Position numbers and translations under genes: made by a program. A model generated the notes under the pieces. The model was not told where the DNA came from, did not search any database, and worked only from the letters and a program-made list of their open reading frames with translations. Shown piece by piece: positions 3,324 to 33,151 of a stretch of DNA of 33,691 nt. Source of the DNA: Rhizobium sp. Q54 (GTDB lineage Bacteria > Pseudomonadota > Alphaproteobacteria > SMXS01); assembly GCA_945907245.1 (NCBI GenBank), contig CAMDTB010000035.1:1-33691 (forward strand). Direction: 5' to 3'. Positions within the stretch are counted from its first letter, which is position 1. Every line of letters begins with the position of its first letter.

Positions 3324-3338
3324 TGATAGTGACACTCA
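3324..3338 (+). promoter_or_regulatory. Candidate iron-rhodo box (TGA-N9-TCA)
   Basis: The sequence tgatagtgacactca has exactly the TGA-N9-TCA form known as the binding site of RirA, the Fe-S iron-sensing repressor of alphaproteobacteria. It lies about 40 bases before the start of an Fe(3+) importer operon, which is where such a site would be expected. The motif has only six fixed bases, so a chance match is possible. Confidence 0.4.
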
Positions 3339-3342
3339 GGAG

Positions 3343-3370
3343 CGTTTGCGGCAGAGATATGCCGCAAACG
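3343..3370 (+). promoter_or_regulatory. Inverted repeat next to the ribosome-binding site of the Fe(3+)-binding protein gene
   Basis: A perfect 10-bp inverted repeat (cgtttgcggc at 3343-3352, gccgcaaacg at 3361-3370) with an 8-nt loop. Its right arm ends at the first base of the GGAG ribosome-binding site (3370-3373) of the gene starting at 3380. As RNA it would form a 5'-leader hairpin touching the Shine-Dalgarno sequence; as DNA it could be an operator. No T tract follows, so it is not a terminator. Confidence 0.55.
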
Positions 3371-3379
3371 GAGAGCATC

Positions 3380-4408
3380 ATGATTCACTGGCGTATTCTG
3401 AAACTGGCCGCCATGGCGGCGGTCGGCGTGGCCATCTCCCTGCCAGCGATGGCGGCGGGCGAGGTGAACGTCTATTCCTACCGCCAGCCCGAGCTGATCA
3501 AGCCCCTGTTCGACGCGTTCACGAATCAGACCGGCGTCAAGGTGAACATGGTCTACGCCCAGGCGGGCCTGCTGGAGCGGCTGAAGGCGGAAGGCGCCAA
3601 TTCGCCGGCCGACATGGTGCTCTCGTCCGACATGTCGCGGCTGCTCGAGGTGCAGGAGGCAGGACTGGCCGCATCGGTCACCTCGCCGGCGCTGACCGCC
3701 AACATCCCGGCCCAGTACCGCGATCCGGCGGGCCACTGGTACGGCCTCACCATGCGGGCGCGCGTCGTCTATGCCTCGAAGGAACGGGTGCCGGCCGGCA
3801 AGGTCGTGTCCTATCTCGACCTGGCCAGGCCTGAATGGAAGGGCCGCATCTGCACCCGGCCGGGCGACCATCCCTACAATCTCGGCCTGATCGCCGGCCT
3901 GATCCACCGCCACGGCGCCGACAAGACCCGCGCGTGGCTGCTGGGTGTCAAGGCGAACCTGGCGCAAAAGCCGCAGGGCAACGACCGCAGCCAGGTGAAG
4001 GGCATCAACGAAGGCCTGTGCGACGTATCGCTGGGCAACACTTACTACATGGGCCGCATGCTGGCCGATCCGAAGGAGAAGGCCTGGGCGGACTCCGTGT
4101 ACCTGGTGTTCCCGGACCAGAAGGCCGGCGGCACCCATGTGAACGTCTCCGGCGCCAATGTGCTCAAGGCGGCGCCGAATCCGGCGAACGCGCTGAAGCT
4201 GCTGGAATTCCTCAGCGGCGCCGAGGCGCAGAAGATCTATGCCGAGGTGAACTCGGAATATCCGGTGAAGCCGGGTGTGCCGGCCTCGGCGGTGGTCGCG
4301 GGCTGGGGCGCGTTCGAGGCCGACACGGCGTCGCTGGCCGAGATCGCCGGACTGCAGGGAGAGGCGCTGCTGCTGGTCAACGAAACCCGCTTCAACGACG
4401 GGCCGTGA
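3380..4408 (+). CDS. Fe(3+) ABC transporter, periplasmic iron-binding protein (FbpA/FutA type)
   Basis: A 342-residue precursor with a signal peptide (hydrophobic core at about 6-22, likely cleavage after AMA near residue 25). The mature part starts 'GEVNVYSYRQPELIKPLFDA', the usual beginning of class II ferric-binding proteins. The tyrosine pair in GNTYYMG (residues 222-223) and the tyrosine in VYSYRQ fit the Fe(3+) ligand set of FbpA/FutA. It captures iron in the periplasm and hands it to the permease encoded next. ATG 3380 is chosen because GGAG lies six bases upstream and the signal peptide begins there; an in-frame TTG at 3323 has no such support. A candidate iron box and a hairpin precede it. 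Confidence 0.92.
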   Translation: MIHWRILKLAAMAAVGVAISLPAMAAGEVNVYSYRQPELIKPLFDAFTNQTGVKVNMVYAQAGLLERLKAEGANSPADMVLSSDMSRLLEVQEAGLAASVTSPALTANIPAQYRDPAGHWYGLTMRARVVYASKERVPAGKVVSYLDLARPEWKGRICTRPGDHPYNLGLIAGLIHRHGADKTRAWLLGVKANLAQKPQGNDRSQVKGINEGLCDVSLGNTYYMGRMLADPKEKAWADSVYLVFPDQKAGGTHVNVSGANVLKAAPNPANALKLLEFLSGAEAQKIYAEVNSEYPVKPGVPASAVVAGWGAFEADTASLAEIAGLQGEALLLVNETRFNDGP

Positions 4409-4430
4409 CGGCCCGGCGCCGGTTTCTCCG

Positions 4431-6080
4431 TTGACCGCCGCCCCGCGCCGGATCGCCTCCGCCGCCACGCTGGCCGTGGCCGCGCTGGTCGCGCTGCCGA
4501 TCCTGTCGGTGGCATGGACGGCGCTTTCCGCCGGCCTGGGTCCGCAATGGGTCCACCTCTGGGCGACGGTCCTGCCCGACTACGTGATCAACACGCTGCT
4601 GCTCTCGGTCTGGGTCTCGCTGGGCGTCGCGGTCATCGGCGTGTCGACCGCGTGGCTGGTCACCATGTGCCGCTTTCCCGGCAGCGCCGTGCTGCGCTGG
4701 GCGCTGGTGCTGCCGCTGGCGCTGCCGGCCTATGTGGTGGCCTTCCTCTATACCGACCTGCTGGAATATGCGGGCCCGGTGCAGGCCGCGCTGCGCGACG
4801 CGTTCGAATGGCGCACACGCCGCGACTACTGGTTCCCCGAGATCAGGTCGCTCGGCGGCGCGGCCTTCGTGATGTCCATGGCGTTCTATCCCTATGTTTT
4901 CCTGCTGGCCCGGTCGGCCTTCCTCGAACAGTCCCATGACGCCTGGGAGGTTTCGCGCACTCTGGGCGACAGCCCGCTGCGCGCGTTTCGCCGGGTGGCG
5001 CTGCCGCTTGCGTGGCCTTCGGTGGTCGTGGGCATCGCCCTGGCGGTGATGGAGACGGTCAGCGACTACGGCGTGGTCAGCTTCTTCTCGGTGCCGACCC
5101 TGACCAACGGCCTGTTCAATGTCTGGCTGGTGATGGGCGACCGGGCGGCCGGCGCGCAGATCGCCCTGCTGCTGCTGCTGTTCGTCATGGCGCTGGTCAT
5201 GGTGGAACGCCGGGCGCGGGCGCGCCGGGCATATTTCGCGCTGTCCACACGGTCGCGCTCGGCCGCGCCGGTGACACTGCGCGGCTGGCAGGCTGCCGCG
5301 GCGCTGGCGGTTTGCGCGGTGCCGGTGCTGCTGGGCTTTGTATGGCCGGTCTGGCGGCTGGCGGGCCTGGCGGTGGGCTATGACGGCGCGGCCGGGCCGG
5401 ATTTCGCCGCCGTGGTCGCGCGCAGCCTCGGGCTGGCGGGCGCGGCCGCCGCGCTCACCCTGGTCGTAGGCCTGGGCCTTGCCTATGCGGCCCGCCTCGG
5501 GCTGTCCCGGTCCGCCCGGTTCGCCGCGCGGATCGCATCGTTCGGCTATGCCTTGCCGGGCGCCGTGCTGGCGATCGGGGTGATGATCCCGTTCGGCGCC
5601 TTCGACCGTGTGGTCGGCGGTACGCTGCGCGACCAGTGGGGCATTACCACCGGCCTGCTGCTGTCCGGCACCGTCTTCGCGCTGCTGTCGGCCTATCTGG
5701 TCCGCTTCCTCACCTTGTCCCATGGTTCCCTCGAAGCAGGCCTGCAGCGCATCCGCCCCTCGTTGGACATGGCGGCGCGGACCCTCGGCCGGGGCGCGGC
5801 CGCGACGCTGGGCCGGGTCCATCTGCCGCTGCTGCGGGGCGCGCTGGTGACCGCCGGATTGCTGGTGTTCGTCGACGTGCTCAAGGAGCTTCCCGCCACC
5901 CTGGTATTGCGGCCCTTCGACTTCGAGACCCTGGCGACCTCGGTCTACACCCTGGCGTCCGACGAACGCTATGGCGAGGCTGCGGCGCCGGCGCTGGTCC
6001 TCACCCTCGCGGGCCTCATTCCGGCGGTGCTCCTCAGCGGGCTGCTGGGGCGCCGCGCCGGCGTGGCGGAGCCGCCATGA
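4431..6080 (+). CDS. Fe(3+) ABC transporter permease (FbpB type)
   Basis: About 549 residues, a fused double permease with roughly 12 membrane segments as in FbpB/SfuB. Both halves carry the cytoplasmic EAA-type loop that docks to the ATPase: 'EVSRTLGDSPLRAFRRVALP' (about 173-192) and 'AARTLGRGAAATLGRVHLPL' in the second half. I place the start at TTG 4431 because the first membrane helix begins just after it and the upstream in-frame residues are arginine-rich and overlap the binding-protein gene in another frame. No good ribosome-binding site is visible, so translation may be coupled to the preceding gene. It ends in ATGA, overlapping the ATPase start. Confidence 0.9.
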   Translation: MTAAPRRIASAATLAVAALVALPILSVAWTALSAGLGPQWVHLWATVLPDYVINTLLLSVWVSLGVAVIGVSTAWLVTMCRFPGSAVLRWALVLPLALPAYVVAFLYTDLLEYAGPVQAALRDAFEWRTRRDYWFPEIRSLGGAAFVMSMAFYPYVFLLARSAFLEQSHDAWEVSRTLGDSPLRAFRRVALPLAWPSVVVGIALAVMETVSDYGVVSFFSVPTLTNGLFNVWLVMGDRAAGAQIALLLLLFVMALVMVERRARARRAYFALSTRSRSAAPVTLRGWQAAAALAVCAVPVLLGFVWPVWRLAGLAVGYDGAAGPDFAAVVARSLGLAGAAAALTLVVGLGLAYAARLGLSRSARFAARIASFGYALPGAVLAIGVMIPFGAFDRVVGGTLRDQWGITTGLLLSGTVFALLSAYLVRFLTLSHGSLEAGLQRIRPSLDMAARTLGRGAAATLGRVHLPLLRGALVTAGLLVFVDVLKELPATLVLRPFDFETLATSVYTLASDERYGEAAAPALVLTLAGLIPAVLLSGLLGRRAGVAEPP

Positions 6081-8264: not shown

Positions 8265-8897
8265 CTACCCCCGCAAATCCCCCTGCCACCCGTTCCGGTG
8301 GACGAAGTCGCTCACCGGCCGCCTTGCCAGCGGGCCGAAATTGATTGCCGGCCAGCCCACGGGAATGAATGCCGCGATGTACACGTCCGACGGGATGTCG
8401 AGCAGCTCGCGCAGCTCCTTCTCGCAGGTGTTCTGGTAGGTGGTGAAGCAGGTGCCCAGCCCCAGTGCGCGCGCGGCCACGGTGATGTTCTGCGCCGCCG
8501 GGTAAAGCGCCGACCAGACGAACTGCTCGGTGGGCGCCTGGGGCGGATAGACCTTCTTGCCGCAGACCAGGATGATCACCGGGATGTCTCCCAGGGTGCG
8601 CGCCATGTTCTGCGTGCCCTGGAGCATGCGGCGGTTGACGTCGTCGAGGGCGTCGAGGCCGCCCATGCTTTTCTGGATGCCTTCCACCGTGGCGTCGATC
8701 ACCTCGGTGATCTTTTCCGACAGCTTCTGCTTGATCGCCCGGTCGGTGATCACGATGAAGTCCCAGCCCTGCGAGTTGCCCGGGCTGGGCGCGCGCGTCG
8801 CGGCGTACAGGATCTTGTCGACCAGTTCGTCGGGCACCGGGTCCTTCTTGAAGAACCGCACCGCCCGGCAGGTTTCCATCGCCTCAAAAACGTCCAA
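8265..8897 (-). CDS. Nitroreductase family protein
   Basis: About 210 residues of FMN-dependent nitroreductase type. The start 'DVFEAMETCRAVRFF' includes the usual arginine-x-x-arginine FMN phosphate contact, followed by 'ATRAPSPGNSQGWDFIVI' and, near the C-terminal third, 'ARALGLGTCF'. Members reduce nitro groups, quinones or enones with NAD(P)H, and the substrate is unknown here. I place the start at TTG 8897 because GGAGG lies five bases upstream; the frame opens four codons earlier at another TTG that lies inside this ribosome-binding site, and an internal ATG six codons downstream lacks one. Confidence 0.87.
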   Translation of the reverse strand: MDVFEAMETCRAVRFFKKDPVPDELVDKILYAATRAPSPGNSQGWDFIVITDRAIKQKLSEKITEVIDATVEGIQKSMGGLDALDDVNRRMLQGTQNMARTLGDIPVIILVCGKKVYPPQAPTEQFVWSALYPAAQNITVAARALGLGTCFTTYQNTCEKELRELLDIPSDVYIAAFIPVGWPAINFGPLARRPVSDFVHRNGWQGDLRG

Positions 8898-9046
8898 TTT
8901 CGCCTCCAATTCCTCGTTTGCGGCACCACTCTAGCCTGAATTTTTCGTGAAGGAGAGCCGATGCCGCGATACCGCCGCTGATCGGCGGTTCATTTGCCCC
9001 GTTTTCGGGGTTGAGGTCCAAGAAGCAACAATCTGGAGGGCAGATC

Positions 9047-21421: not shown

Positions 21422-22189
21422 ATGGGAATGCACGAGCGGTTCCGCTTGGACGGCAAGGTCGCGGTCGTCACCGGCGGCGGCAGAGGTATCGGCAAGGGGA
21501 TCGCCATCGCGTTCGCCGAGTGCGGTGCGGACGTGGCGGTGATCGCCCGCCGCCAGGCGGACGTGGACGAGGTGGCGAATGAAATCAGGGCGCTGGGCCG
21601 CAAGAGCCTGGCGATCTCGGCGGACGTGATGGACTGGACCGCGATCCCGAAGGCGCTCGACCGGGTGGTCGCCGAGCTCGGCGGCCTCGACATCATGGTG
21701 AACAATGCCGGCGGCAATCTCGACCGCAAGATGTATCCGCTGCCGGAAATCCCGCTCGAGAAGTGGGACGAGCAGATCGATCTCAACATGAAGACCAAGT
21801 TCTGGGGCTCGCAGCAGGCCGCCAAGCGGATGCAGAACGGCGGCCGCATCATCAACATCATCTCGATCGCGGCGCACAACGCGTCGCTGGGCTTTGGCGC
21901 CTATTCGTCGGCGAACAACGGCATGATCGCGTTCACCCGCACCATGGCTGTCGAGCTGGCACCCAAGAAGATCACCGTGAACTGCATCGCGCCCGGCATT
22001 GTCGTCACCGACATGTTCAAGGAGACCCTGAACATCTCGAACGACCAGGCGATGAAGATGGCCGCCGACGCGACGCCGCTGGGCCGCACCGGCTATCCGG
22101 AAGACGTCGCCGCCGCGGCCGTCTTCTTCGCATCGCCTGCCGCCGAATGGACGACGGGCCAATTCCTAGACGTCGCAGGAGGACGCTGA
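21422..22189 (+). CDS. SDR-family protein 1, catalytic lysine replaced by asparagine
   Basis: A 255-residue short-chain dehydrogenase-fold protein. The dinucleotide loop TGGGRGIG is at 17-24, NNAG at 94-97, the catalytic-type serine S148 in 'NIISIAA' and tyrosine Y161 in AYSSANNG. The lysine expected four residues after the tyrosine (YxxxK) is asparagine N165, codon aac. That residue normally binds the nicotinamide ribose and lowers the tyrosine pKa, so the protein may be inactive, a lyase- or enoyl-reductase-like variant, or a partner subunit. GGGGAG precedes ATG 21422. It overlaps the next SDR start by one base (TGATG). Confidence 0.9.
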   Translation: MGMHERFRLDGKVAVVTGGGRGIGKGIAIAFAECGADVAVIARRQADVDEVANEIRALGRKSLAISADVMDWTAIPKALDRVVAELGGLDIMVNNAGGNLDRKMYPLPEIPLEKWDEQIDLNMKTKFWGSQQAAKRMQNGGRIINIISIAAHNASLGFGAYSSANNGMIAFTRTMAVELAPKKITVNCIAPGIVVTDMFKETLNISNDQAMKMAADATPLGRTGYPEDVAAAAVFFASPAAEWTTGQFLDVAGGR

Positions 22190-23082
22190 TGAGTGTTTCG
22201 CTGAAGGGCCGGACAGCCATCGTAACCGGGGCCGCAGTCGGCATCGGCAATGCCTATGCCAAGGCCATGGCCAAGGAAGGCTGCAACGTGGCGGTGATCG
22301 ACCTCCGGGCCGAGATCACCAGTCTGGCCGGGGAACTGGAGAAGCACGGGGTCAAGGCCTATGCCGTGCAGGGTGACGTGTCGCAGCCGGCGACCGTGCG
22401 CAAGTTCGTCGACGACGTGATTGGCAGATTCGGCGGCGTCGACATCCTGATCAACAATGCGGGCCAGTGTTCGGTCAGCCTGATCGATGACGATCTGGAC
22501 AAGACCGAAGCCGACTATGAAAGCATGGTGGGCACCAATCTGCGTGGCGAATACCTGATGGGCCGGGCGGTTATCGCCCAGTTGCTGAAGCAGGGCCGTG
22601 GCGGGGAGATCGTCAACATCGGCACCGACCATGGCGTCACCTGCGGATCGCCGCGCGAACTGTGCCCGCACCTGGAGAGTTGCCCGTGGGGAGATTCGCC
22701 CCGGCCGACCGGCGGCGGTACCGTCATGGACATCTATGACGCCAGCAAATACGGCACCTATGCGCTGACCTTCGCCTGGGCGAAGGCGTTGAAGCCGCAG
22801 AATATCCGCGTCAACTGCATGTGCATGGGCGCGACGGACTCATGGATGATCCGCAACTTTTTCGGCGAGCGCGCCACGCCCGAGGAAGTCGCCACCTGGA
22901 TGACCGCCGAAAACTCGGCCCAGGTCGTCGTCGACATCCTGAAGGAAGGTCCCCAGGGTCGCACCGGTGAAACCATCAATCTTTGCGTCGGCCGGCCTAC
23001 CGTGCTCGAGCCGGAGCGCAAGCCCATCTATGTGACGCCCGAGAGCGTCGGCTACAATGCGAGGGAGACCGTCGATGCTTAA
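22189..23082 (+). CDS. SDR-family oxidoreductase 2 with a three-cysteine active-site loop
   Basis: A 297-residue classical SDR, longer than the usual 250. It has TGAAVGIG at 13-20, NNAG at 89-92, and YDASK with Y183 and K187 intact. Between the catalytic-serine strand (here 'VNIGTDHG', with Thr146 in place of Ser) and the tyrosine there is an insert of about 20 residues containing C152, C159 and C165 in C-x6-C-x5-C, then PRPTGG. The insert sits at the mouth of the active site and could bind a metal or an Fe-S cluster, or form disulfides. The C-terminal extension 'EPERKPIYVTPESVGY' is shared with SDR 4. ATG overlaps the preceding stop, and its end overlaps SDR 3. Confidence 0.92.
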   Translation: MSVSLKGRTAIVTGAAVGIGNAYAKAMAKEGCNVAVIDLRAEITSLAGELEKHGVKAYAVQGDVSQPATVRKFVDDVIGRFGGVDILINNAGQCSVSLIDDDLDKTEADYESMVGTNLRGEYLMGRAVIAQLLKQGRGGEIVNIGTDHGVTCGSPRELCPHLESCPWGDSPRPTGGGTVMDIYDASKYGTYALTFAWAKALKPQNIRVNCMCMGATDSWMIRNFFGERATPEEVATWMTAENSAQVVVDILKEGPQGRTGETINLCVGRPTVLEPERKPIYVTPESVGYNARETVDA

Positions 23083-23866
23083 GGGAAAGATCGCCATCGT
23101 CAGCGGCGCGGCGCAGGGACTGGGCGAGGCGTTCGCCCGCCGGCTGGCGCAGGAAGGCGCGACCGTCCTCGCCTTCGACGTCCAGGACAAGATCGAGACC
23201 GTGGCGCAGAAGATCGCCGACGAGACCGGATCGACGGTGGTCGGCATGAAGGCTGACATCTCGAAGCGCGCCGATGTGGAGAAGGTTGTCGCCAAGGCCG
23301 CCGAACTGGGCGGGATCGACATCCTGGTCAACAACGCCGGCACCTGGAAGAAAACCCCTGTCGATTCGTCCTGGGAGCAGGCCGTCGCCGACTGGGACTT
23401 CATCATGGACACCAACTTCAAGGGCCTGCTGATGCTGACCCGCGCCAGCGTGCCGCACATGAAGACCCGCGGGCAGGGCGACATCGTCAACATCAGCACC
23501 TATTACGTGCTGCCGGCCCGCAGCGATGGCACCAACCAGCCTGACACGGACCTGTACAACGCCTCCAAGTGGGCGCTGAACGGCTTCACCGATTCGTGGG
23601 CGAAAGCGCTCGCCGAGTTCAACATCCGGGTCAACGCCCTGTGCATGGGCGCCACCGACACGCCCATGCTGCGCGGACTGTTCCCGGACAAGCAGCTGCC
23701 GCCGGACATGGCCAAGCAGGTGATGAAGCCCGAGCAGATCGCCCAGCAGATGATCGACCTGTTCAAGGACGGCCGCACCGGCGAGAACATCGGCGCCTGG
23801 GTCGGCTATCCGGTCGAGCTGGGTCCGCGCAAGGTCGCGCACAAGACCATCTCGGGCGTGGCCTGA
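23075..23866 (+). CDS. SDR-family oxidoreductase 3
   Basis: A 263-residue SDR with SGAAQGLG at 10-17, NNAG at 86-89, and YNASK (Y161, K165). As in SDR 2 and 4, the catalytic serine is replaced by threonine (Thr142 in 'VNISTYYV'), and a shorter insert 'LPARSDGTNQPDTDL' precedes the tyrosine. There are no cysteines in it. The motif 'CMGATDTPML' after the active site is shared with its neighbours, showing common ancestry. ATG 23075 lies within the end of SDR 2 (8-bp overlap), so they are translationally coupled. Substrate unknown. Confidence 0.9.
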   Translation: MLKGKIAIVSGAAQGLGEAFARRLAQEGATVLAFDVQDKIETVAQKIADETGSTVVGMKADISKRADVEKVVAKAAELGGIDILVNNAGTWKKTPVDSSWEQAVADWDFIMDTNFKGLLMLTRASVPHMKTRGQGDIVNISTYYVLPARSDGTNQPDTDLYNASKWALNGFTDSWAKALAEFNIRVNALCMGATDTPMLRGLFPDKQLPPDMAKQVMKPEQIAQQMIDLFKDGRTGENIGAWVGYPVELGPRKVAHKTISGVA

Positions 23867-23884
23867 GAGATCAGTTGGAAGGCC

Positions 23885-23912
23885 GCCGGCGCGATGGGGA
23901 TGTCGCGCCGGC
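23885..23912 (+). other. Hairpin in the gap between SDR genes 3 and 4
   Basis: A perfect 10-bp stem (gccggcgcga 23885-23894 with tcgcgccggc 23903-23912) and an 8-nt loop. No T run follows, so it is more likely to affect RNA processing or partial termination inside the operon than to end it. Confidence 0.6.
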
Positions 23913-23945
23913 GCCGCTCCGCTTCAAAGCTCACGGGGAATCGAC

Positions 23946-24830
23946 ATGACTGAACTGCTGATCGGGAAGACCGCCATCGTCACAGGCGCGGCCATCGGCA
24001 TCGGCCGGGCCTATGCCAAGGCCATGGCGCGCGAGGGCTGCAACGTGGCGGTCATCGACCTCATGCCTGAGATCATGGACCTGCCGAAGGAACTGGAGCG
24101 GCGCGGCGTCAAGGCTTTCGCCGTCACCGGCGACGTGTCCGATCCGGCCACCGCGCGCAAGTTCGTCGATGACACCATCGCCCGGTTCGGCGGCATCGAC
24201 ATCCTGATCAACAACGCCGGCAAGTGCTGGCTCAGCTCGTCCCATGACGATCTGGACAAGACCCTTGCCGACTATGACGGCATGGTCGGCACCAACCTGA
24301 AGGGCGAGTACCTGATGGGCCGGGCGGTGATGCCCAGCATGATCGCGCGGGGTGGCGGCAACATCGTCAACATCGGCACCGACCATGGCGTTACCTGCGG
24401 CTCGCCGCGCGAGCTGTGCCCGCATCTCGACACCTGCCCATGGGCGGCTTCGCCCCGGCCGACCGGCGGCAGCCTCGTGTTCGACGTCTACGACTCCAGC
24501 AAATACGGCACCTATGCGCTGACCTACGCCTGGGCGAAGGCACTGCGGCCGAAGAACATCCGGGTCAACGGCATGGCCATGGGCGCGACGGACACCTCCA
24601 TGCTGCGCAACTTCCTCGGCGACGCGGTTACGCCGGAACTCGCCGCTACCTGGATGCGGCCAGAGGATTCGGCCCAGGTCGTCGTCGATATCATCAAGGA
24701 AGGCCCGAACGGCCGCACCGGCGAGATGATCAATCTCTGTCACGGCCGCCCGACGGTGCTGGAGCCCGAACGTCCGCCGATCTACGTCACGCCCGAAAGC
24801 ATCGGCTACGACAAGCGGGAGAGGACCTGA
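23946..24830 (+). CDS. SDR-family oxidoreductase 4 with a three-cysteine active-site loop
   Basis: A 294-residue paralogue of SDR 2, clearly from duplication. It has TGAAIGIG at 13-20, NNAG at 89-92, YDSSK with Y182 and K186, Thr145 in 'NIGTDHG', and the same insert with C151, C158 and C164 (C-x6-C-x5-C), followed by PRPTGG. The C-terminal 'EPERPPIYVTPESIGY' is also shared. The two genes keep nearly the same DNA over the cysteine-loop region. ATG 23946 has GGGGA upstream. Because SDR 3 lies between the two copies, the arrangement may have arisen by duplication of a segment followed by loss, or they may form different heteromeric partners. Confidence 0.92.
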   Translation: MTELLIGKTAIVTGAAIGIGRAYAKAMAREGCNVAVIDLMPEIMDLPKELERRGVKAFAVTGDVSDPATARKFVDDTIARFGGIDILINNAGKCWLSSSHDDLDKTLADYDGMVGTNLKGEYLMGRAVMPSMIARGGGNIVNIGTDHGVTCGSPRELCPHLDTCPWAASPRPTGGSLVFDVYDSSKYGTYALTYAWAKALRPKNIRVNGMAMGATDTSMLRNFLGDAVTPELAATWMRPEDSAQVVVDIIKEGPNGRTGEMINLCHGRPTVLEPERPPIYVTPESIGYDKRERT

Positions 24831-25026
24831 GTTCGGCAACCTGCCCGTTACCTTTTGGCATCCTATTGAAATATAATACCAAAATATCCGGATAATCTGT
24901 CGTTCACGGTAACGGCCGGGTCTGCGGCGCGTTGACAGCTTCAGTACCCGCGATACTTCTAGAGCGTTCGCGTGCACTGGCCGCCGGTCTTCGGCAGGCC
25001 TCGCGCGGCTGGCAAAGGTCGTCACC
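24831..25026 (+). other. AT-rich intergenic region before the type III PKS gene
   Basis: A 196-bp region; the stretch at about 24845-24900 is AT-rich and is the likely promoter region for the polyketide unit. No hairpin terminator for the SDR operon is apparent, and no small gene is supported. Confidence 0.4.
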
Positions 25027-26118
25027 ATGCAGAGATCGACCGACGCGAGTGAGGGAGTGCACGCGAGCCTGCTGTCGCTCGCGACGGCGGTCCCGCCCCA
25101 CCTTCTGACCCAGGCAGAGGCCGCGCGCATCGCCCGCGATGTCTTTTCACCCCGCTTTCCCGATTTCGGTCGGCTGGAGAAGGTGTTCGCCACCACCGGC
25201 ATCAGCACGCGGCACCTGATCCGCCCGGTCGACTGGTATCTCGAGCCGCGTGGCTGGAGTGAAAGGACCGAATCCTACCTGGACGGCGCGGGGGACCTGT
25301 TCGTCGACGCGGCGCGCAAGGCGCTGGCGGCGGCGAACTGCACCGCGGCCGACGTGGACACCGTCATCAGCATTTCCTCCACCGGTATCGCCACGCCCAG
25401 CCTGGAAGCGCGGGTGCATGGCCGCATGGGCTTCCGGCCGGACGTGGAGCGGGTGCCGGTGTTCGGCCTCGGCTGCGCCGGCGGCGTGCAGGGCCTCGCC
25501 ATCGCCGGACGGCTGGCCCGCGCGCAACCCGGCTCGACCGTATTGCTGGTCGCCGTGGAAGTCTGCTCGGCGGCCTTCCGGCTCGACACGCTGACCAAGG
25601 CCAATATCATCGCCACCGCCCTGTTCGGCGATGGCGCCGCCGCCGCCGTGGTGCGTACTGGAGACCTCGGATTCGCGCGTATCGAAGGCGCGGGCGAGCA
25701 TCTGTGGGCGGGCACGCTCGGGATCATGGGCTGGAACATCGACGAGGTCGGCTTTGGCGTCGTCTTCGACCGCGAGATACCGCCCTTCGCCCGCGACAAC
25801 GTAGGCCCGGCCATCGACGGCATCCTGGCGCGGATCGGCGTCGACCGCGACAGCGTCGATCGCTTCATCTGCCATCCGGGCGGCGCCAAGGTGGTGACCG
25901 CGCTGGAGCAGACCCTGCATCTCGACCAGGGCGCGCTCGACCATGAGCGTGCGGTGCTGCGCGACCATGGCAATATGTCGGCGCCCACGGTGCTGTTCGT
26001 CCTCGACCGGGTGCTCAGGGAAAGTCTGCCGGAGCGCTCGGTGCTGACGGCGCTCGGACCCGGCTTCAGCTGCGGCTGCGTTTCGCTGGTAAAGTCGGCG
26101 CCGCCGAGGGCCGCGTGA
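25027..26118 (+). CDS. Type III polyketide synthase (chalcone/stilbene synthase family)
   Basis: A 363-residue thiolase-fold synthase with the full catalytic triad: C150 in FGLGCAGG, H283 in CHPGG and N316 in HGNMSAPT. It extends an acyl-CoA starter with malonyl-CoA and cyclises it to a pyrone or phenol. The pairing with an ICMT-like methyltransferase matches the Bacillus bpsA-bpsB and Streptomyces srsA-srsB type clusters that make alkylpyrones and phenolic lipids, so the starter is probably a fatty acyl-CoA. Its stop overlaps the GTG start of the methyltransferase (GTGA), making the unit translationally coupled. Confidence 0.93.
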   Translation: MQRSTDASEGVHASLLSLATAVPPHLLTQAEAARIARDVFSPRFPDFGRLEKVFATTGISTRHLIRPVDWYLEPRGWSERTESYLDGAGDLFVDAARKALAAANCTAADVDTVISISSTGIATPSLEARVHGRMGFRPDVERVPVFGLGCAGGVQGLAIAGRLARAQPGSTVLLVAVEVCSAAFRLDTLTKANIIATALFGDGAAAAVVRTGDLGFARIEGAGEHLWAGTLGIMGWNIDEVGFGVVFDREIPPFARDNVGPAIDGILARIGVDRDSVDRFICHPGGAKVVTALEQTLHLDQGALDHERAVLRDHGNMSAPTVLFVLDRVLRESLPERSVLTALGPGFSCGCVSLVKSAPPRAA

Positions 26119-26600
26119 GCCTGGCGCTCGCGGTCCTGGTGTTCGTCTCGCTGCAGCGGCTGGGCGAACTGGCGCTCGCCCGCCGCAACACCGCGCGGCT
26201 GCTTGCGCAGGGCGGGATCGAAGTCGCGCCAGGACATTACCCGTTGATCGTGCTGCTGCATGGCGCCTGGCTCGCCGGCCTGTGGTGGCTGGCCTGGTCC
26301 GCGCCGGTCGACCTGGCCTGGCTCGCGGTCTTCGCGGTGCTTCAGCTGCTGCGCGTCTGGGTTCTTGCCACCCTGGGGCCGCGCTGGACGACGCGGATCA
26401 TCGTGCTGCCCGGCGCACCGCTCGTGCGGGAAGGGCCGTACCGGTTCCTCAATCACCCCAACTATTGGGTCGTCGCCGGCGAGATCATGGTGCTGCCGCT
26501 GGTGTTCGGCCTGGTCTGGTACGGCGTGGTCTTCAGCCTGCTGAATGCCGCTCTGTTGATGGTCCGCATCCGCGCCGAAAACCGGGCGCTGGCCCGGTGA
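26115..26600 (+). CDS. ICMT-family (isoprenylcysteine carboxyl methyltransferase-like) protein
   Basis: A 161-residue integral membrane protein with about four to five hydrophobic segments. The conserved C-terminal SAM region reads 'GPYRFLNHPNYWVVAGEIMVLPL' (motif R-x-x-x-HPNY), ending in a glutamate-containing tail 'RIRAENRAL'. In type III PKS clusters such proteins (for example BpsB, SrsB) O-methylate the polyketide product. GTG start at 26115 overlaps the PKS stop by four bases, and its own stop overlaps the GTG of the transporter, so the three are one tight unit. Confidence 0.87.
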   Translation: MSLALAVLVFVSLQRLGELALARRNTARLLAQGGIEVAPGHYPLIVLLHGAWLAGLWWLAWSAPVDLAWLAVFAVLQLLRVWVLATLGPRWTTRIIVLPGAPLVREGPYRFLNHPNYWVVAGEIMVLPLVFGLVWYGVVFSLLNAALLMVRIRAENRALAR

Positions 26601-28147
26601 TCCGGCAATCACCCGACGACGACCGCGCTGTGCCGTTCACGGTGTGGGCGGGTTTCGCCGCCATGTGCCTTGGCATGTTCATGGCGATCCTCGACGTGCA
26701 GGTGGTCGTCACCTCCATGCCCGCCATCCAGAGCGCGCTCGCAATTCCGCCCGAGCGCATGAGCTGGATCCAGACCGCCTATCTGATCGCCGAAGTCATC
26801 GCCATTCCGCTCACCGGCTTGCTGACGCGGGCCCTGACCATGCGCGGCCTGTTTTTTGCCGCCATCCTCCTGTTCAGCGCCGCGTCGCTCGGCTGCGCAT
26901 TGAGCGTCGGATTCGCCGACCTGATCGCCTGGCGTGTCGTGCAGGGGTTCGCCGGCGGCGTGCTGATCCCGCTGGTGTTCGCCGCCGTGTTCCTGCTGTT
27001 CCCGGCCCGGCTGCAGGGCATCGCGACCACCATCGGCGGCGTGCTGGCGGTGCTGGCGCCCACGGTCGGACCGCTTGTCGGCGGCTGGATCACCGAGACC
27101 TGGTCCTGGCACTGGCTGTTCCTGATCAACATCGGGCCGGGATTGCTGGCCGCTGCCGCGGCGCTGGTGTGCCTGCCGCGCGAACGACCCGACCCTGGCC
27201 ACCTGCGAACCGTCGACACCATCGCCCTGGTGCTGATGGCCATCGCACTCGCGGCGATGGAGATCGGGCTCAAGGAGGCCCCCAAGCGGGGATGGCTGTC
27301 CGGGCTCGTGCTGGCGCTGCTGGTGCTCAGCGTGGCGAGCGGCGCGGCATTCGTGCGCCGGACACTGGCGCGCTCCCGGCCCTTCGTCGACCTTGGCGAG
27401 TTCCGCGACCGGGCGTTCGCCGTCGGCTGCTGCCTCAGTTTCCTGCTGGGCGTAGGACTTTACGGCTCGGTCTACCTGATGCCGGTATTCCTCGGCTATG
27501 TGCGCGGTTATGGACCCCTGGATATCGGGCAGGTCATGCTGGTCACTGGCCTTGCCCAGCTTGTGACGGCGCCAATCGTGGTTCAGCTCGAGCGGCGATT
27601 CGACGCCCGGTGGCTCACGGCGTCCGGCTTCGCCCTCTTCGGAGTCGGCCTGGCCATGAGCACGTTTCAGACCCCGCAAACCGGCTTCGACGAGATGCTG
27701 TGGCCGCAGATCGTCCGCGGTTCGGCGATCATGCTGTGTCTGCTGCCGCCGACCCGGCTCGCGTTGGGGCATCTGCCACCCGATCGGGTGACCAACGCCA
27801 GCGGATTGTTCAACCTCATGCGTAACCTGGGCGGCGCCATCGGCATCGCCCTGATCGACACTGTGATCCACGGCAGGGCCGAAGACCATGGCAGGCGCCT
27901 CGCCGAAGAACTGATGGCAGGCAGCCGCGAGGCCGCCGCGTTCGTCGGCCTGCCGCTCAAGTTCTTCAAGGGCGTGCCGCTGGAGAACCTGGAGGCGTCG
28001 GCCGTCGATTTCGCCCGCCCGCTGGTCGAGAAAGCCGGCATGGTGCTCGCCATCAACGAGGCGTGGGCCATGCTGTCCGGTTTCATGATCGTGGGTCTGC
28101 TGGTCCTGCCGCTGATTTCCTCATCTGCGTACCGGCGCGTGGCCTGA
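26597..28147 (+). CDS. MFS transporter, DHA2 family (14 membrane segments, EmrB/QacA type)
   Basis: A 516-residue drug:proton antiporter-like exporter. It has the DHA2 hallmark motifs: 'MAILDVQVVVTSMPAIQSAL' in the first helix, the loop 'WRVVQGFAGGVLIPL', and motif C 'LAPTVGPLVGGWI' followed by 'WHWLFLINIGPG'. Many members export hydrophobic molecules. Translationally coupled to the PKS and methyltransferase (GTGA overlap), so it probably exports, or protects against, the lipid product, although a drug-export role is possible. GTG 26597 is chosen because of the overlap and because the first helix begins about 20 residues later. Confidence 0.9.
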   Translation: MIRQSPDDDRAVPFTVWAGFAAMCLGMFMAILDVQVVVTSMPAIQSALAIPPERMSWIQTAYLIAEVIAIPLTGLLTRALTMRGLFFAAILLFSAASLGCALSVGFADLIAWRVVQGFAGGVLIPLVFAAVFLLFPARLQGIATTIGGVLAVLAPTVGPLVGGWITETWSWHWLFLINIGPGLLAAAAALVCLPRERPDPGHLRTVDTIALVLMAIALAAMEIGLKEAPKRGWLSGLVLALLVLSVASGAAFVRRTLARSRPFVDLGEFRDRAFAVGCCLSFLLGVGLYGSVYLMPVFLGYVRGYGPLDIGQVMLVTGLAQLVTAPIVVQLERRFDARWLTASGFALFGVGLAMSTFQTPQTGFDEMLWPQIVRGSAIMLCLLPPTRLALGHLPPDRVTNASGLFNLMRNLGGAIGIALIDTVIHGRAEDHGRRLAEELMAGSREAAAFVGLPLKFFKGVPLENLEASAVDFARPLVEKAGMVLAINEAWAMLSGFMIVGLLVLPLISSSAYRRVA

Positions 28148-28220
28148 GGAAATCCGCAAGACAGCCCGCCAATTCTGCGCAATTGCGTTTGCCTGGCGGC
28201 GGGCGTAGGGTCCGCCCCGA

Positions 28221-28383
28221 TGGTGCCCGCAAGGGCTTCAAAGGGAACACGGAAGAGCAATGTGCGCTCCAGCCGTGGCTGTCCCCGCAACTGTAAGCGG
28301 CGAGTTCCGATACGAAGAGCCACTGGGATCCGTCCTGGGAAGGCGTATCGGGGCGATGACCCGCCAGCCAGGAGACCTGCCAT
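28221..28383 (+). ncRNA. Cobalamin riboswitch (AdoCbl/MeCbl, btuB leader)
   Basis: The conserved B12-box core is present: 'aagggaacacgg' (28241-28252), 'gccgtggctgtccccgcaac' (28272-28291) followed by ctgtaagcgg, 'gccactggga' (28319-28328) and 'gccagccaggagacctgcc' (28363-28381). The order and spacing match the class. It lies about 180 bases before btuB, with an intergenic region of 418 bp overall (28148-28565); the 60-70 bp before the riboswitch should hold the promoter. It would repress the downstream transport operon when cobalamin is abundant. In the expression platform, ggtttcc (28423-28429) is complementary to ggaaacc (28558-28564) at the btuB ribosome-binding site. Confidence 0.95.
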
Positions 28384-28565
28384 CGCGTCGTCCTTCCAGC
28401 TACCGGGGTAGTGGGTGGTGCGGGTTTCCGCTGTGGCGACACCTGTGAACGGGTTGGACGCCGCGGATGGGACGATACGCGCCCTCGCAAGCAATGACCG
28501 GCAGCGCCCTGGCGCGGCGGCATCCCGTGCGTCCAGCCTCTTACCAAGTGGCTGTGAGGAAACCG

Positions 28566-30533
28566 ATGCCCGCCAATCGATCTAACCGACGAAAAACGTC
28601 ACTGTTTGTCACCACCGCGCTGGCCGGCCTGGCCGGCGCGCCCGCCTTCGCCGCCGACGGCGTATTGCCCGGCGATACGGTGTTCGTCACGGCGAGCATG
28701 ATACCCGCCGAGGCCTACACCATCGGCAACGCCATCTCGGTACTCGACGAGGAATATATCGAGCGGCGGCAGAACCCGGTCGTCTCCGACCTGCTGCGCA
28801 GCGTGCCCAGCGTCGCCGTCAGCCGCTCGGGCGGACCGGGCCAGCTGACCCAGATCCGCATGCGCGGCGCCGAGGGCAATCACACGCTGGTGCTGATCGA
28901 CGGCGTCGAGGCCAACGAGTTGAACTTCAACGGCGAGTTCGACTATGCCGGCCTAATGGCCGTCGGCATCGAGCGCATCGAGGTGCTGCGCGGCGCCCAG
29001 AGCGCACTTTACGGGTCGGATGCGCTGGGCGGCGTCATCAACATCATCACCAAGAGCGGTCACCCCGGATTCCGCTTCGAGGGCTCGGCCGAGGGCGGCT
29101 CGTTCGCCGAACGGCAGGCGACGGCGCTCGTCTCCGGCGGCACCGACCGGGTGAACGGCGTGTTCTCGGCCGGCTATTTCGGTACCGACGGCATCAACCT
29201 CTCGCGCTTCGGCACCGAGAAGGACGGCGCCCGCACCTTCACCTTCAGCGGCAAGGGCATGGCCCAGGTCACCGACAATTTTCGCATCGACGCGGTCGGC
29301 CGCTACGTGACCAGCAAGAACGACACCGACGCCCAGGACTTCAACTGGCCACCGACCCCGACCGAGGGTCTGGTCATCGATACCCTGGACGTGCAGAAGA
29401 ACCGCCAGTTCTATGGCCGCGTGCAGGGCGAGCTGTCGCTGTTCGACGATCACTGGGTGCACCAGGCATTAGTGCAATACGCCGACACCAAGCGCGAATA
29501 CATCAATCCCAGCAATGACCTGACCGGCAACCACGGCCAGCGGCTCAAGTTTGCCTACCAGAACACGGTGAATTTCCAGACACCCTCGTTTCTCGACGCC
29601 GACCACCACGTGACCATGGCGTTCCAGCGGGAGGAACAGGACTTCGTCAACCGCGGCGCCGTGCCCGACGCGCTGGAGAACCAGGAACAGTCGGAGCCGC
29701 AGAACAGCTATATCGGCGAGTACCGCGTCGGTTTCGCCGACCAGCTATTCCTGTCGGCCGGCGTGCGCCACGACGACAACCGCATGTTCAAGAACGCCAC
29801 CACCTACCGGCTTTCGGCCGCCTGGCAGTTCAAGGAGATCGGCACCCGGCTCCATGCCAGCCACGGCACCGCCGTCACCAACCCGGGCTTCTTCGAGATG
29901 TTCGGCTTCTTTCCGGCCTTTTTCCTCGGCAATCCGGACCTGAAGCCCGAGGAATCCCGCAGCTTCGACGTCGGCATCGAGCAAAAGCTGTTCGACGACA
30001 AGCTGGTCCTCGACGTGACCTATTTTCACGCCAACCTGGAAAACGAGATCGTCACCGTCTTCGACTTCAACACGTTCCTGACGATGGTCGACAACCTGGT
30101 CGGCACCAGCCAGCGCGAGGGCATCGAGGTGATGATGTCGGCACAACTCACCGACAACCTGTCGGTCGGCGGCAGCTACACCTACACCAGGTCCCGCCAG
30201 CCCGACGGCTCGCCGGAAGTCCGTCGGCCCAGGCACATGGGCAGTCTCAACGCCAACTACGCGTTCGCGGCGGGGCGCGGCAACGTCAACCTGGACGTGT
30301 CGTACAATGGCAAGCAGCTCGACAACGAGTTCGCGAGTTCCACGCCGGAATCCGTCGTCACGCTGAACGACTACGTGCTGGTGACGCTTGCGGCCAGTTA
30401 CAGGCTCACCGACAGCCTCGAGGTCTATGGCCGGGTCGAGAATCTGGTCGACCAGAACTACGAGGAAGTGTTCTCCTACCGTTCGCCCGGCCTCGGCGCC
30501 TTCGCCGGCCTGCGGGTGAAACTGGGAGACTGA
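28566..30533 (+). CDS. btuB: TonB-dependent outer-membrane vitamin B12 receptor
   Basis: A 655-residue receptor precursor. The signal peptide ends at about AFA, and the mature protein starts with the TonB box DTVFVTAS, very close to E. coli BtuB's DTLVVTA. A plug domain follows ('RSVPSVAVSRSGGPGQLTQIRMRGAEGNHTLVLIDGVEAN', readable in the genes as RMRGAEGNHTLVLIDGVE and GAQSALYGSDALGGVINI), then a beta-barrel ending in an aromatic-rich C-terminal strand. The cobalamin riboswitch upstream and btuF/C/D downstream make B12 the substrate. ATG 28566 is preceded by gagga at good spacing; an upstream in-frame ATG at 28467 adds residues unlike a signal peptide. Confidence 0.94.
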   Translation: MPANRSNRRKTSLFVTTALAGLAGAPAFAADGVLPGDTVFVTASMIPAEAYTIGNAISVLDEEYIERRQNPVVSDLLRSVPSVAVSRSGGPGQLTQIRMRGAEGNHTLVLIDGVEANELNFNGEFDYAGLMAVGIERIEVLRGAQSALYGSDALGGVINIITKSGHPGFRFEGSAEGGSFAERQATALVSGGTDRVNGVFSAGYFGTDGINLSRFGTEKDGARTFTFSGKGMAQVTDNFRIDAVGRYVTSKNDTDAQDFNWPPTPTEGLVIDTLDVQKNRQFYGRVQGELSLFDDHWVHQALVQYADTKREYINPSNDLTGNHGQRLKFAYQNTVNFQTPSFLDADHHVTMAFQREEQDFVNRGAVPDALENQEQSEPQNSYIGEYRVGFADQLFLSAGVRHDDNRMFKNATTYRLSAAWQFKEIGTRLHASHGTAVTNPGFFEMFGFFPAFFLGNPDLKPEESRSFDVGIEQKLFDDKLVLDVTYFHANLENEIVTVFDFNTFLTMVDNLVGTSQREGIEVMMSAQLTDNLSVGGSYTYTRSRQPDGSPEVRRPRHMGSLNANYAFAAGRGNVNLDVSYNGKQLDNEFASSTPESVVTLNDYVLVTLAASYRLTDSLEVYGRVENLVDQNYEEVFSYRSPGLGAFAGLRVKLGD

Positions 30534-30537
30534 CGGC

Positions 30538-31380
30538 ATGAAGGCGGCGGGCTGGTACATCCTGTTCGGCCTGCTCGCCGCCGTTTCAGCCGTGCCCGCC
30601 CATGCCGCGCCGGAGCGCATTGTCTCGATGGGCCTGTGCACCGACCAGATCGTCATGCTGCTCGCCGATCCCGACACCATCCTGTCCGTGCACTGGGTCA
30701 CCCAGGATGCGGAGGATTCCGCCATGTGGAAGCAGGCGGCGCGCTATGTGCCCAACCACGGGCTGGCGGAGGAGGTGCTGCGGCTGCGGCCCGACATGGT
30801 GTTCGCCGACGGCAGCAACTCGCCGCTCGCGGTCGCCATGCTGAAACGACAGGGTATCGCGGTGTTTACCGTGCCGGTCGCCGATACCTTCGGCGGCGTC
30901 CGCGCCAATATCCGCCGGATCGCCGCCGCACTGGGCGAAACCGAGCGGGGCGAGGCATTGGTGACGTCCTTCGATGCGGCGCTGGCGCAGACGAGAGGCT
31001 CCCTGTCCGATCTTCATTACCGGTCGCTGGTCTACGGCGCCAACGGCTTCTCGGCGGGAGTCCCCAGCCTGTTCGATGACGTGCTCACCCATCTGGGTCT
31101 GGTCAACATCGCCGCCAAGCCGGGCCTGTCCGGCTGGGTCAGCATGACGGTCGAGGATGTGCTGCGCGCCGAGCCGCAGCTGCTGATCCTCGGCGAGTAC
31201 CGCATGGGTTCGCCGTCCATGGCCAATCTCGTGCTCGAGCATCCGGCGCTCGCCACCCTGCGGCGCGACCGGCCGGTGGTGAGCGTACCGACCGCCCTGT
31301 GGAATTGCGGCACGCCCTATCTGGCGCAGGCGGCGCAGACCCTGCGCGACCAGGTCCGGCCGCTGGCGAGGCGCCCATGA
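30538..31380 (+). CDS. btuF: Periplasmic cobalamin-binding protein of an ABC importer
   Basis: A 280-residue precursor with signal peptide 'YILFGLLAAVSAVPAHA' and a mature start 'ERIVSMGLCTDQIVMLLADPD', the standard beginning of cobalamin/siderophore-binding proteins (class III). The conserved 'AEEVLRLRPDMVFADG' and the C-terminal 'EPQLLILGEYR' also match. It would carry B12 from BtuB to the permease. It begins four bases after btuB, and its stop overlaps the btuC start (ATGA). In F420-containing actinobacteria a similar trio is proposed to transport F420-0, but the riboswitch here argues for B12. Confidence 0.88.
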   Translation: MKAAGWYILFGLLAAVSAVPAHAAPERIVSMGLCTDQIVMLLADPDTILSVHWVTQDAEDSAMWKQAARYVPNHGLAEEVLRLRPDMVFADGSNSPLAVAMLKRQGIAVFTVPVADTFGGVRANIRRIAAALGETERGEALVTSFDAALAQTRGSLSDLHYRSLVYGANGFSAGVPSLFDDVLTHLGLVNIAAKPGLSGWVSMTVEDVLRAEPQLLILGEYRMGSPSMANLVLEHPALATLRRDRPVVSVPTALWNCGTPYLAQAAQTLRDQVRPLARRP

Positions 31381-32369
31381 ACCCGGCGAGCCACACCCGC
31401 ATCGCTCTGGTCTGCGCCAGTCTCGCGGCCGCGGTGGCGGTGCTGTTCGCGCTGTCCATCTTCGTCGGCCGCGGCGGCGAGTGGCTGCCGGCGACCCGCG
31501 ACCTCGATCCGGGCGTGACCGAGATCATTCTCTACCAGGTGCGCCTGCCGCGCGCCCTGCTGGGCCTGATGGCGGGCGCGGCGCTGGGGCTGTGCGGTGC
31601 TGCGCTCCAGGGGCTGCTGCGCAACCCGCTGGCCGAGCCCGGACTGGTCGGCGCGTCGGGAGGCGCGGCGCTGGGCGCCGTCGTCGTGTTCTATTTCGGC
31701 CTGTTCGGCGGCGCGCTCGCCGTGCCGGTGGGCGGCTTCTTGGGTGCCATGGTGGCGCTGGCGCTGCTCTATGCGCTGGCCGGCCGCGGCGTCGATGTCA
31801 TGACCCTCATCCTGGCGGGCGTGGCGGTGAACGCCTTCGCCGGGGCGCTGACCTCGCTCGCCCTCAACCTGGCGCCCAGCCCGTGGGCGGCGCTGGAGAT
31901 CGTGTTCTGGATGCTGGGCTCGCTGGCGGACCGCAGCATGAGCCACGTGATCTTCGCCGCGCCCTTCGCCATTGCCGGCATGGCGCTGGTGCTGACGTCG
32001 GGCAGGGCGCTCGACGCCCTCAGCCTGGGCCAGGACACCGCCCGCAGCCTGGGATTCAGCCCGCGCGCCGCCACCGTGAAGGTGATCCTGGGCACCGGCC
32101 TCGCGGTCGGCGCCGTGGTCTCGGTCACCGGCATGATCGGCTTCGTCGGGCTGGTGGTGCCACACCTGCTGCGGCCGGTGATCGGCCATCATCCCAGCCG
32201 CCTGTTGCTGCCCAGCGCGCTGGCCGGCGCGGCGGTGCTGCTCGCCGCCGACATCCTGGTGCGCGTGCCCATGCGTGGACCCGAGCTGAAGCTGGGCGTG
32301 GTGACGGCGCTGATCGGCGCGCCGTTCTTCCTGCACCTGATCCTCAAGACCAGGCGGAGCGGCGCATGA
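31377..32369 (+). CDS. btuC: FecCD/BtuC-type ABC permease
   Basis: A 330-residue permease with about ten membrane segments. Typical FecCD motifs are 'RLPRALLGLMAGAALGLCGAALQGLLRNPLAEPGLVGASGG' (split here as RLPRALLGLMAG, GAALQGLLRNPLAEP and GLVGASGG), 'FWMLGSLADRS' and 'GMIGFVGLVVPHLLRPVIG'. The protein moves cobalamin across the inner membrane. Translationally coupled on both sides by ATGA overlaps to btuF and btuD. Confidence 0.92.
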   Translation: MNPASHTRIALVCASLAAAVAVLFALSIFVGRGGEWLPATRDLDPGVTEIILYQVRLPRALLGLMAGAALGLCGAALQGLLRNPLAEPGLVGASGGAALGAVVVFYFGLFGGALAVPVGGFLGAMVALALLYALAGRGVDVMTLILAGVAVNAFAGALTSLALNLAPSPWAALEIVFWMLGSLADRSMSHVIFAAPFAIAGMALVLTSGRALDALSLGQDTARSLGFSPRAATVKVILGTGLAVGAVVSVTGMIGFVGLVVPHLLRPVIGHHPSRLLLPSALAGAAVLLAADILVRVPMRGPELKLGVVTALIGAPFFLHLILKTRRSGA

Positions 32370-33151
32370 CGTCGATCCGCGCACGGGACCTGACTGTCTC
32401 GTTCGGCGACCTGCCCGCCGTCGCCGGCGTCAGCTTCGTGGCCGGACCCGGCGCGCTCGTCGGCCTCATCGGCCCGAACGGCGCCGGCAAGACCAGCCTG
32501 ATCCGCGCGCTCGCCGACCTGGTGCCGTTTGGCGGCGCGGTCGAGCTGGATGGCCGGCCGGTACAGCAGATCGGCCGCCGGGCTTTCTCCCGCATGGTTG
32601 CCTATCTGGCGCAGAGCCAGCCGGTGCACTGGCCGTTCAGCGTCCGCGACCTGGCGGCGCTGGGACGCCTGCCGCACCGGGCCCCGTTCCAGGGTCTGTC
32701 GGACGCGGACAAGGCGGCCATTGACGAGGCGCTGGCGCTGGCGGCGATGACCGGATTCGCGTCGCGGCCGGTCGACACCCTGTCCGGCGGCGAGCGGGCG
32801 CGGGCGCTGCTGGCGCGGGCGCTGGCGGTGAAGGCGCCGGTTCTGCTGGTCGACGAGCCCATCGCCGCGCTCGATCCCTACCACCAGATCGGGATCATGG
32901 AGGTGCTGCGCGCCTATGCCGAGGCCGGCGCGCTGGTGATCGCCGTGCTGCACGACCTGACCCTGGCCGAGCGGTTCTGCCACCGCTTGCTGCTGCTGCG
33001 CGAGGGCCGGTTGCTGGCCGACGGCCCGCCCGCCGAGGTGCTGGTCGACGAGAACGTCCGCGCCGCCTACCGGGTGGCGGTGATCCATCACATCCACGAC
33101 GGCCAGCGGGTCACCGTGCCGTGGGAACGCGTCGATCCGGGCGTTCGTTAG
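32366..33151 (+). CDS. btuD: Cobalamin ABC transporter ATP-binding protein
   Basis: A 261-residue ATPase: Walker A GPNGAGKTS (36-44), Q-loop in AYLAQS, signature LSGGERAR, Walker B VLLVDEP, and switch histidine in AVLHDLTLA. The C-terminal 'AVIHHIHDGQRVTVPW' is a typical end for FecE/BtuD relatives. It completes the B12 importer. ATG 32366 overlaps the btuC stop. It converges on the methyltransferase gene with a 17-bp gap and no visible terminator. Confidence 0.92.
   Translation: MTSIRARDLTVSFGDLPAVAGVSFVAGPGALVGLIGPNGAGKTSLIRALADLVPFGGAVELDGRPVQQIGRRAFSRMVAYLAQSQPVHWPFSVRDLAALGRLPHRAPFQGLSDADKAAIDEALALAAMTGFASRPVDTLSGGERARALLARALAVKAPVLLVDEPIAALDPYHQIGIMEVLRAYAEAGALVIAVLHDLTLAERFCHRLLLLREGRLLADGPPAEVLVDENVRAAYRVAVIHHIHDGQRVTVPWERVDPGVR

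Follow-up and report, generated by a model that had tools for sequence, protein, structure and literature searches.

A type III polyketide synthase, an ICMT-family methyltransferase and a DHA2-type transporter encoded by overlapping genes: a recurrent trio and candidate lipid export operon of Alphaproteobacteria

The nearest known counterparts of the locus reported here contain a type III polyketide synthase (PKS), in some cases together with a methyltransferase. In B. subtilis, bpsA-bpsB encode a type III PKS and a methyltransferase, and alkylpyrones, one of them methylated, are the products described in PMC5686519. RpsA of Rhodospirillum centenum, an alphaproteobacterial type III PKS, is described in the review PMC6274091 as using C6-C20 acyl-CoAs with methylmalonyl- and malonyl-CoA. 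For hidABC of cyanobacteria and a planctomycetal three-gene operon, PMC10896814 gives the gene order methyltransferase-oxidoreductase-PKS. Here, we analysed a 33,691-base contig of Rhizobium sp. Q54 (C35, referred to in full length as the window), in which the genes of a type III PKS, an ICMT-family methyltransferase (ICMT) and a transporter of the major facilitator superfamily (MFS) follow each other on the forward strand. The genome comprises 3.34 Mb in 136 contigs and is 98.3% complete; when named genomes were scanned using the PKS alignment, the window's relatives fell in the Alphaproteobacteria. As in bpsA-bpsB, the PKS gene precedes the methyltransferase gene; the difference is the exporter, the words 'transporter' and 'MFS' occurring 0 times in the main text of PMC5686519. 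The likeness to RpsA is one of description. The trio resembles hidABC in being a three-gene type III PKS operon that includes a methyltransferase, but the gene order is different, an exporter takes the place of the oxidoreductase, and the locus did not test as hidABC-type. No description of PKS-ICMT-MFS was found in the open-access literature searched, most subscription papers being outside its scope. PKS-methyltransferase pairs are known, and the recurrent exporter is what is added here. We propose, with a probability of roughly 60%, that the trio is a biosynthesis-and-export operon whose product, an O-methylated alkylpyrone or phenolic lipid, would be moved outward by a dedicated antiporter.

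The PKS (25027-26118, + strand, 363 aa) contains the N- and C-terminal chalcone/stilbene synthase domains (PF00195, 77 bits; PF02797, 62.5 bits), each above its curated cut-off, and is the genome's sole match to PF00195 (E ≤ 0.001). Cys150 (25474-25476), His283 (25873-25875) and Asn316 (25972-25974), which from knowledge of the family we take to be the type III PKS catalytic triad, show no variation among 16 aligned sequences. In an alignment with M. tuberculosis PKS11, Cys150 pairs with the Cys of that enzyme, a methyl-branched alkylpyrone synthase. PKS11 is the best match in the PDB by sequence and also the top fold match (4jap, TM 0.89/0.91) of the predicted model (pLDDT 88.8), at ~30% identity. 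We infer a lipid product from the PKS11-like fold, the membrane methyltransferase family and the known products of the related systems, and the PKS probably builds a fatty polyketide. The starter is not fixed by sequence alone, and tetrahydroxynaphthalene synthase (1u0m) and a plant 2-pyrone synthase also rank high in the fold search; both points would suit a PKS whose starter is short or aromatic and whose product is small and soluble (a pyrone, phloroglucinol or naphthol) and would be secreted by the exporter. We regard such a product as improbable, because PKS11 leads in sequence and in fold and because a methyltransferase from a membrane-protein family fits a membrane-bound substrate. An assignment as DpgA (3,5-dihydroxyphenylacetyl-CoA synthase) was rejected, NF042429 scoring 160.4 bits against an equivalog cut-off of 425.

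The ICMT (26115-26600, + strand, 161 aa) matches PF04140 with 90.2 bits (cut-off 24), and its relatives in the genus align from residue 1 or 2. NCBIfam lists no match for this protein; a PDB search with it yielded a single, weak match to an ICMT (E 0.017) besides three unrelated matches. BpsB is presumably an ICMT-family protein as well. The PKS reading frame ends ...GCC GCG TGA (stop 26116-26118), and the ICMT frame opens with the GTG at 26115, giving a GTGA overlap at 26115-26118. The ICMT frame ends ...CGG TGA (stop 26598-26600), and the MFS frame, which runs to 28147, opens with the GTG at 26597, giving a second GTGA overlap at 26597-26600. The initial annotation of this DNA had placed the three genes at 25027-28147 and had described both junctions as 4-base GTGA overlaps with GTG starts; on checking the sequence, both statements were correct.

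Within the genus, the PKS was found in 5/6 other genomes searched, the sixth being 84% complete, and ICMT and MFS adjoin it at all six loci, window included. Titles of metagenome-assembled genomes were not used as taxonomy, as three genomes of the genus recur in the scan of named genomes under three discordant titles of this kind. Two larger sets were compared. The class sample is an even draw of 385 genomes, with a PKS cut-off of E ≤ 1e-40 and loci L021-L096 (n = 76, including five from an earlier search for relatives). For the named loci, the best 80 of 574 PKS relatives were taken, leaving 75 once five that duplicated genomes already fetched had been removed; their proportions are valid for near relatives. 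The PKS occurs in 72/385 genomes of the class draw, and in 68/75 named loci an ICMT lies beside it. The PKS-ICMT combination, with its overlap, is a widespread alphaproteobacterial pair. The MFS follows downstream in 41/75 named loci and is divergent in one (Caulobacter, L171). In four of the 41 the MFS is in two pieces (L138 and L148) or cut by the contig end (L129 and L149). By title, 12 of the 41 belong to Bradyrhizobium, four to Reyranella, two to Magnetospirillum, two to Rhizobium and one each to Telmatospirillum, Mycoplana, Mesorhizobium, Microvirga, Phyllobacterium, Methylovirgula, Rhizomicrobium, Cypionkella and Pseudorhodobacter; this tally rests on the titles, the remainder of which carry no genus. 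Beyond the three genes, the flanks of the trio vary between genera. Conservation of the MFS with PKS-ICMT in other alphaproteobacteria, which the initial annotation had proposed to check, is therefore found in many of them and fails in many others: among annotated plasmid records, PKS-ICMT lacks the MFS in Phyllobacterium zundukense, Nitrobacter hamburgensis X14 and Alloyangia pacifica, and the PKS stands by itself in Rhizobium etli p42d.

Other arrangements were also observed. In the class sample, the MFS is adjacent only in the genus, in one family of three genomes (G013, G246 and G326) and in G193. The class sample hinted that the trio is nearly peculiar to the genus; the scan of named genomes overturned this. 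At two loci of the three-genome family (L070, 5446-6498, - strand; L080, 5436-6455, - strand), a gene of the FA_desaturase family (PF00487) lies between ICMT and MFS, giving a four-gene form in which this gene is placed as a tailoring step would be. In the third genome (L077), the ICMT/MFS overlap is ATGA. A divergent upstream MFS is found in Sphingomonas sp. R1 (plasmid record), in the Caulobacter locus and in G193, where the distance is ~1.9 kb. At L030, an MFS of 28% identity lies ~6 kb off and was treated as unlinked. A cluster that includes a DUF502 member falls within the fetched stretch of 26/77 class-sample loci (the window added), and one that includes an Mfd-type helicase within 23/77; one member of each was checked against Pfam, and examples are L057 6117-6929 (- strand) and L083 11701-15000 (+ strand). 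These surroundings are perhaps an ancestral chromosomal site of PKS-ICMT.

A single GTGA overlap means little, because a TGA stop that is not preceded by C offers a -4 start in one frame. Overlaps of this kind are also frequent: in an annotated 41-kb plasmid stretch, they occur in 3/23 co-directional neighbour pairs (counted by hand from an incomplete gene table), and two of the three are the trio junctions. Recurrence is more informative. All six PKS loci of the genus have the 4-base overlap from PKS to ICMT (five with GTG, one with TTG) and the GTGA overlap from ICMT to MFS. In the 77 class-sample rows, the ICMT starts at -4 in 57, at -1 in 3 and at neither in 12; in the remainder, it lies 0.6 kb off (1), on the opposite strand (1) or is missing (3, one of these at a contig edge). 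In the named loci, the -4 start is present in 58/68 loci with ICMT and, for the ICMT-to-MFS junction, in 22/39 testable loci, with -1 in two more. Eight further trios from an order sample have it in 7/8 at the first junction and 2/8 at the second. The scripts chose a -4 start wherever one was present, and the true start may therefore differ in some loci. Phyllobacterium sp. 628, an independently annotated plasmid record, has 4-base overlaps at both junctions, with IS6 transposases adjoining; the plasmid record of Rhizobium sp. BG4 has overlaps of 4 and 11 bases. Both overlaps are real and recurrent, and the one between ICMT and MFS is not universal.

The MFS (26597-28147, + strand, 516 aa) is a DHA2 (EmrB-type) transporter, matching PF07690 over cut-off and TIGR00711 with 376.7 bits (cut-off 230.2); the top sequence match for it in the PDB is an EmrB chain (8zal). 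A crude hydropathy scan gave 15 peaks, some of them overlapping, and 14 helices are expected of DHA2/EmrB. The TIGR00711 subfamily is common to the MFS and the EmrB multidrug exporters. The MFS differs from these in its separate clade, in residues 226, 387 and 421 and in that an EmrA gene was not seen among the neighbours scanned. In the tree, the linked pumps form a clade (support 100) apart from EmrB-like proteins of 41-44% identity. In a larger tree (82 rows), the clade contains 59 linked and 19 unlinked rows, and most of the unlinked ones are nested inside, as expected from loss of linkage. Two of them (L103 and L104) are basal, so that an early gain of linkage inside the clade is conceivable. 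The trees are quick ones with SH-like approximate likelihood ratio (SH-aLRT) support only. Five named trio genomes have one trio pump each, at 57-64% identity, their further matches being at ≤ 44%. Lys226, Arg387 and Asp421 are nearly fixed in the clade, and the generic relatives (n = 12) have Glu/Asp, a variable residue and Asn at these positions. The three residues are possible determinants of substrate or coupling. The charge pattern holds for clade pumps whether linked or not. In seven Bradyrhizobium loci, another MFS, distant from that of the trio, lies upstream together with a member of an HlyD cluster, the two resembling an EmrAB pair (checked against Pfam at L194 only, 3063-5763, + strand). 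Some unlinked pump paralogues (L208, 7357-11055, + strand; similar reading frames in L205, L206 and L211) adjoin a gene for a class II B12-dependent ribonucleotide reductase, a neighbour checked against Pfam at L208 only.

The association of the pump with the PKS extends beyond adjacency. In the class draw, a pump of at least 47% identity is present in 11 genomes; 11/11 carry the PKS, with the pump near it in 8 (background 72/385, Fisher p 5e-9). The 47% line was set after seeing the matches, and without it 15/25 genomes at E 1e-120 carry the PKS. In a sample of the order of Bradyrhizobium viridifuturi (G390), where the limit of E ≤ 1e-132 was set after the class result, 20 genomes carry the pump and 19/20 the PKS (background 61/279, p 4e-13); the pump is next to the PKS in 12 of the 20. 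These searches scored the first 3 to 7 candidates per genome, so absences are less sure than presences. Pairwise distances at 48 loci correlate for PKS and MFS (Mantel r 0.862), PKS and ICMT (0.779) and ICMT and MFS (0.768), with 0/2000 permutations as high for each gene pair. The view of PKS, ICMT and MFS as one unit, as the initial annotation had it, holds in evolutionary terms through the many genera with differing surroundings, the distance correlation and the co-occurrence. The position of the MFS beside PKS-ICMT seems not to be mere coincidence, and conservation of the trio in many Alphaproteobacteria suggests that the pump exports the product.

Several observations weigh against a dedicated exporter. 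Neither the Fisher nor the Mantel test corrects for shared ancestry, and linkage of the MFS needs 15 changes on the PKS tree. The pump is not next to the PKS in 8/20 clade-bearing genomes of the order sample and 3/11 of the class draw. In the named loci, 29/75 are without MFS in the fetched stretch and 4 end too soon to tell, so that the PKS-ICMT pair can exist without a pump. Pumps 62-63% identical stand alone on Rhizobium plasmids, with unrelated genes adjoining in the 3 examined; a pump at 60-80% identity is present in 113 plasmid records, and of the 154 records with a match, 114 are from Rhizobium. In G658, which carries the pump, no PKS was detected at E ≤ 1e-40. Restriction of the MFS to PKS genomes or loci is contradicted by G658 and by these plasmids; Rhizobium sp. 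Pop5, N324 and BT03 appear in both the MFS and the PKS plasmid lists. Two unlinked pumps (L103 and L104) branch at the base of the clade (supports 84 and 87), and the clade therefore need not have begun as a PKS partner. HlyD/EmrA was found at 0/6 neighbours scanned (four short-chain dehydrogenases, the TonB receptor and the binding protein), the search being confined to these. NCBIfam and the plasmid records label the pump merely as a DHA2 efflux protein.

The EmrB subfamily assignment (TIGR00711), the unlinked close relatives in several genomes and on Rhizobium plasmids, with two at the clade base, and the frequent PKS-ICMT pairs without MFS would all be expected of a general drug pump that is in the operon by history, having transcripts in common with PKS-ICMT without handling the product. 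We consider this unlikely, as the linkage recurs in two arrangements and in differing surroundings, the pumps have a clade of their own and they co-occur with the PKS even where unlinked. An MFS unrelated to the PKS, one outcome by which the initial annotation would have been refuted, is accordingly made improbable by linkage and co-occurrence while keeping some probability.

In the proposed biosynthesis-and-export operon, a lipid of the alkylpyrone or alkylresorcinol type would be made by the PKS from a medium- or long-chain acyl starter, with malonyl or perhaps methylmalonyl as extender units. One of its ring hydroxyls would be O-methylated at the membrane by the ICMT, which belongs to a membrane-protein family. 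The MFS, a proton antiporter of the clade associated with the pathway, would then carry this methylated amphiphile from the inner leaflet into the periplasmic leaflet or the periplasm itself; the outward direction is taken from the family of the pump. Without an EmrA/TolC partner, a DHA2 pump delivers no further than the periplasm or the inner membrane's outer leaflet, and onward passage beyond the periplasm might use an unlinked partner. The overlapping stop and start codons may couple translation, such that the three proteins would be made together. In G626, ICMT and MFS overlap by GTGA without an adjacent PKS (locus L201, 5020-7103, - strand), and two PKS copies without ICMT are located on other contigs; this arrangement suggests that the pump acts on the methylated product. 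The divergent neighbours at L201 resemble, by eye, an RND efflux pair. A protective role was also considered, in which the product acts in the membrane and the pump clears only toxic precursors or surplus. Type III PKS products such as alkylresorcinols are elsewhere membrane components or electron carriers, according to PMC12224551, and many loci have no pump. The tight ICMT/MFS overlap and the ICMT-MFS unit at L201 point instead to a methylated substrate, and protection alone seems to us an unlikely role.

In the open-access literature searched, no account was found, for these bacteria, of the route by which type III polyketide lipids exit the cytoplasmic leaflet. The overlap of the pump gene with the methyltransferase gene and the co-inheritance of the pump with the enzymes make the export question testable by one deletion. 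PKS-ICMT-MFS provides a compact marker for the pathway across many genera, and the clade signature separates the trio pumps from a generic drug-efflux annotation. More tentatively, Alphaproteobacteria may possess a clade of exporters dedicated to type III polyketide lipids, and the product of the trio might be a secreted or outer-leaflet O-methylated alkylpyrone or resorcinol with an extracytoplasmic role (for instance, signalling or as an envelope lipid) from Bradyrhizobium to Magnetospirillum to Reyranella; this wider proposal is the more doubtful one.

The trio is probably one transcription unit of its own, given the gap and conserved promoter pair upstream and the riboswitch downstream. 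A gap of 196 bases separates the PKS from four short-chain dehydrogenase (SDR) genes upstream. In this gap a candidate promoter (24932-24958, + strand) consists of TTGACA (24932-24937), 15 nt and ATACTT (24953-24958). Both elements are present in 5/6 genus members in a gap that has otherwise diverged, and the sixth retains CGTTGA only. The promoter/terminator scan omitted this element, its 15-nt spacing being below the range that the scan accepts, and the candidate is weak for this reason. On the right, a cobalamin riboswitch (28204-28398, + strand; RF00174, 113.4 bits) starts 56 bases past the MFS stop and opens the next operon, of a TonB receptor and an ABC transporter; on this ground the downstream cobalamin operon was rejected as a part of the trio. 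The stretch 28204-33151 (+ strand) comprises the riboswitch, the TonB receptor, a binding protein, a BtuC-like permease and a reading frame that by eye is ATPase-like. The best NCBIfam match of the receptor is TIGR01779, below cut-off (264.4 bits against 599.7), and the binding protein and permease are also below their equivalog cut-offs. Together with the riboswitch, these are apparently the genes of a B12 uptake operon.

The four SDR genes lie in a row at 21425-24830 (+ strand). SDR genes are also upstream of the PKS at the five other genus loci, and this cluster is absent at the trio loci of other genera. Membership of the SDR genes in the operon was rejected on the gap, the genus-conserved candidate promoter and the restriction of the cluster to the genus; the rejection applies across genera, and within the genus the idea may still hold. 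At a distance from the trio, a nitroreductase/BluB-like gene (8265-8909, - strand) matches the FbiB C-terminal model below cut-off. A further gene (151-1098, + strand) encodes CofD, the 2-phospho-L-lactate transferase of F420 synthesis, with TIGR01819 at 300.6 bits against a cut-off of 257.45, in an alphaproteobacterial genome.

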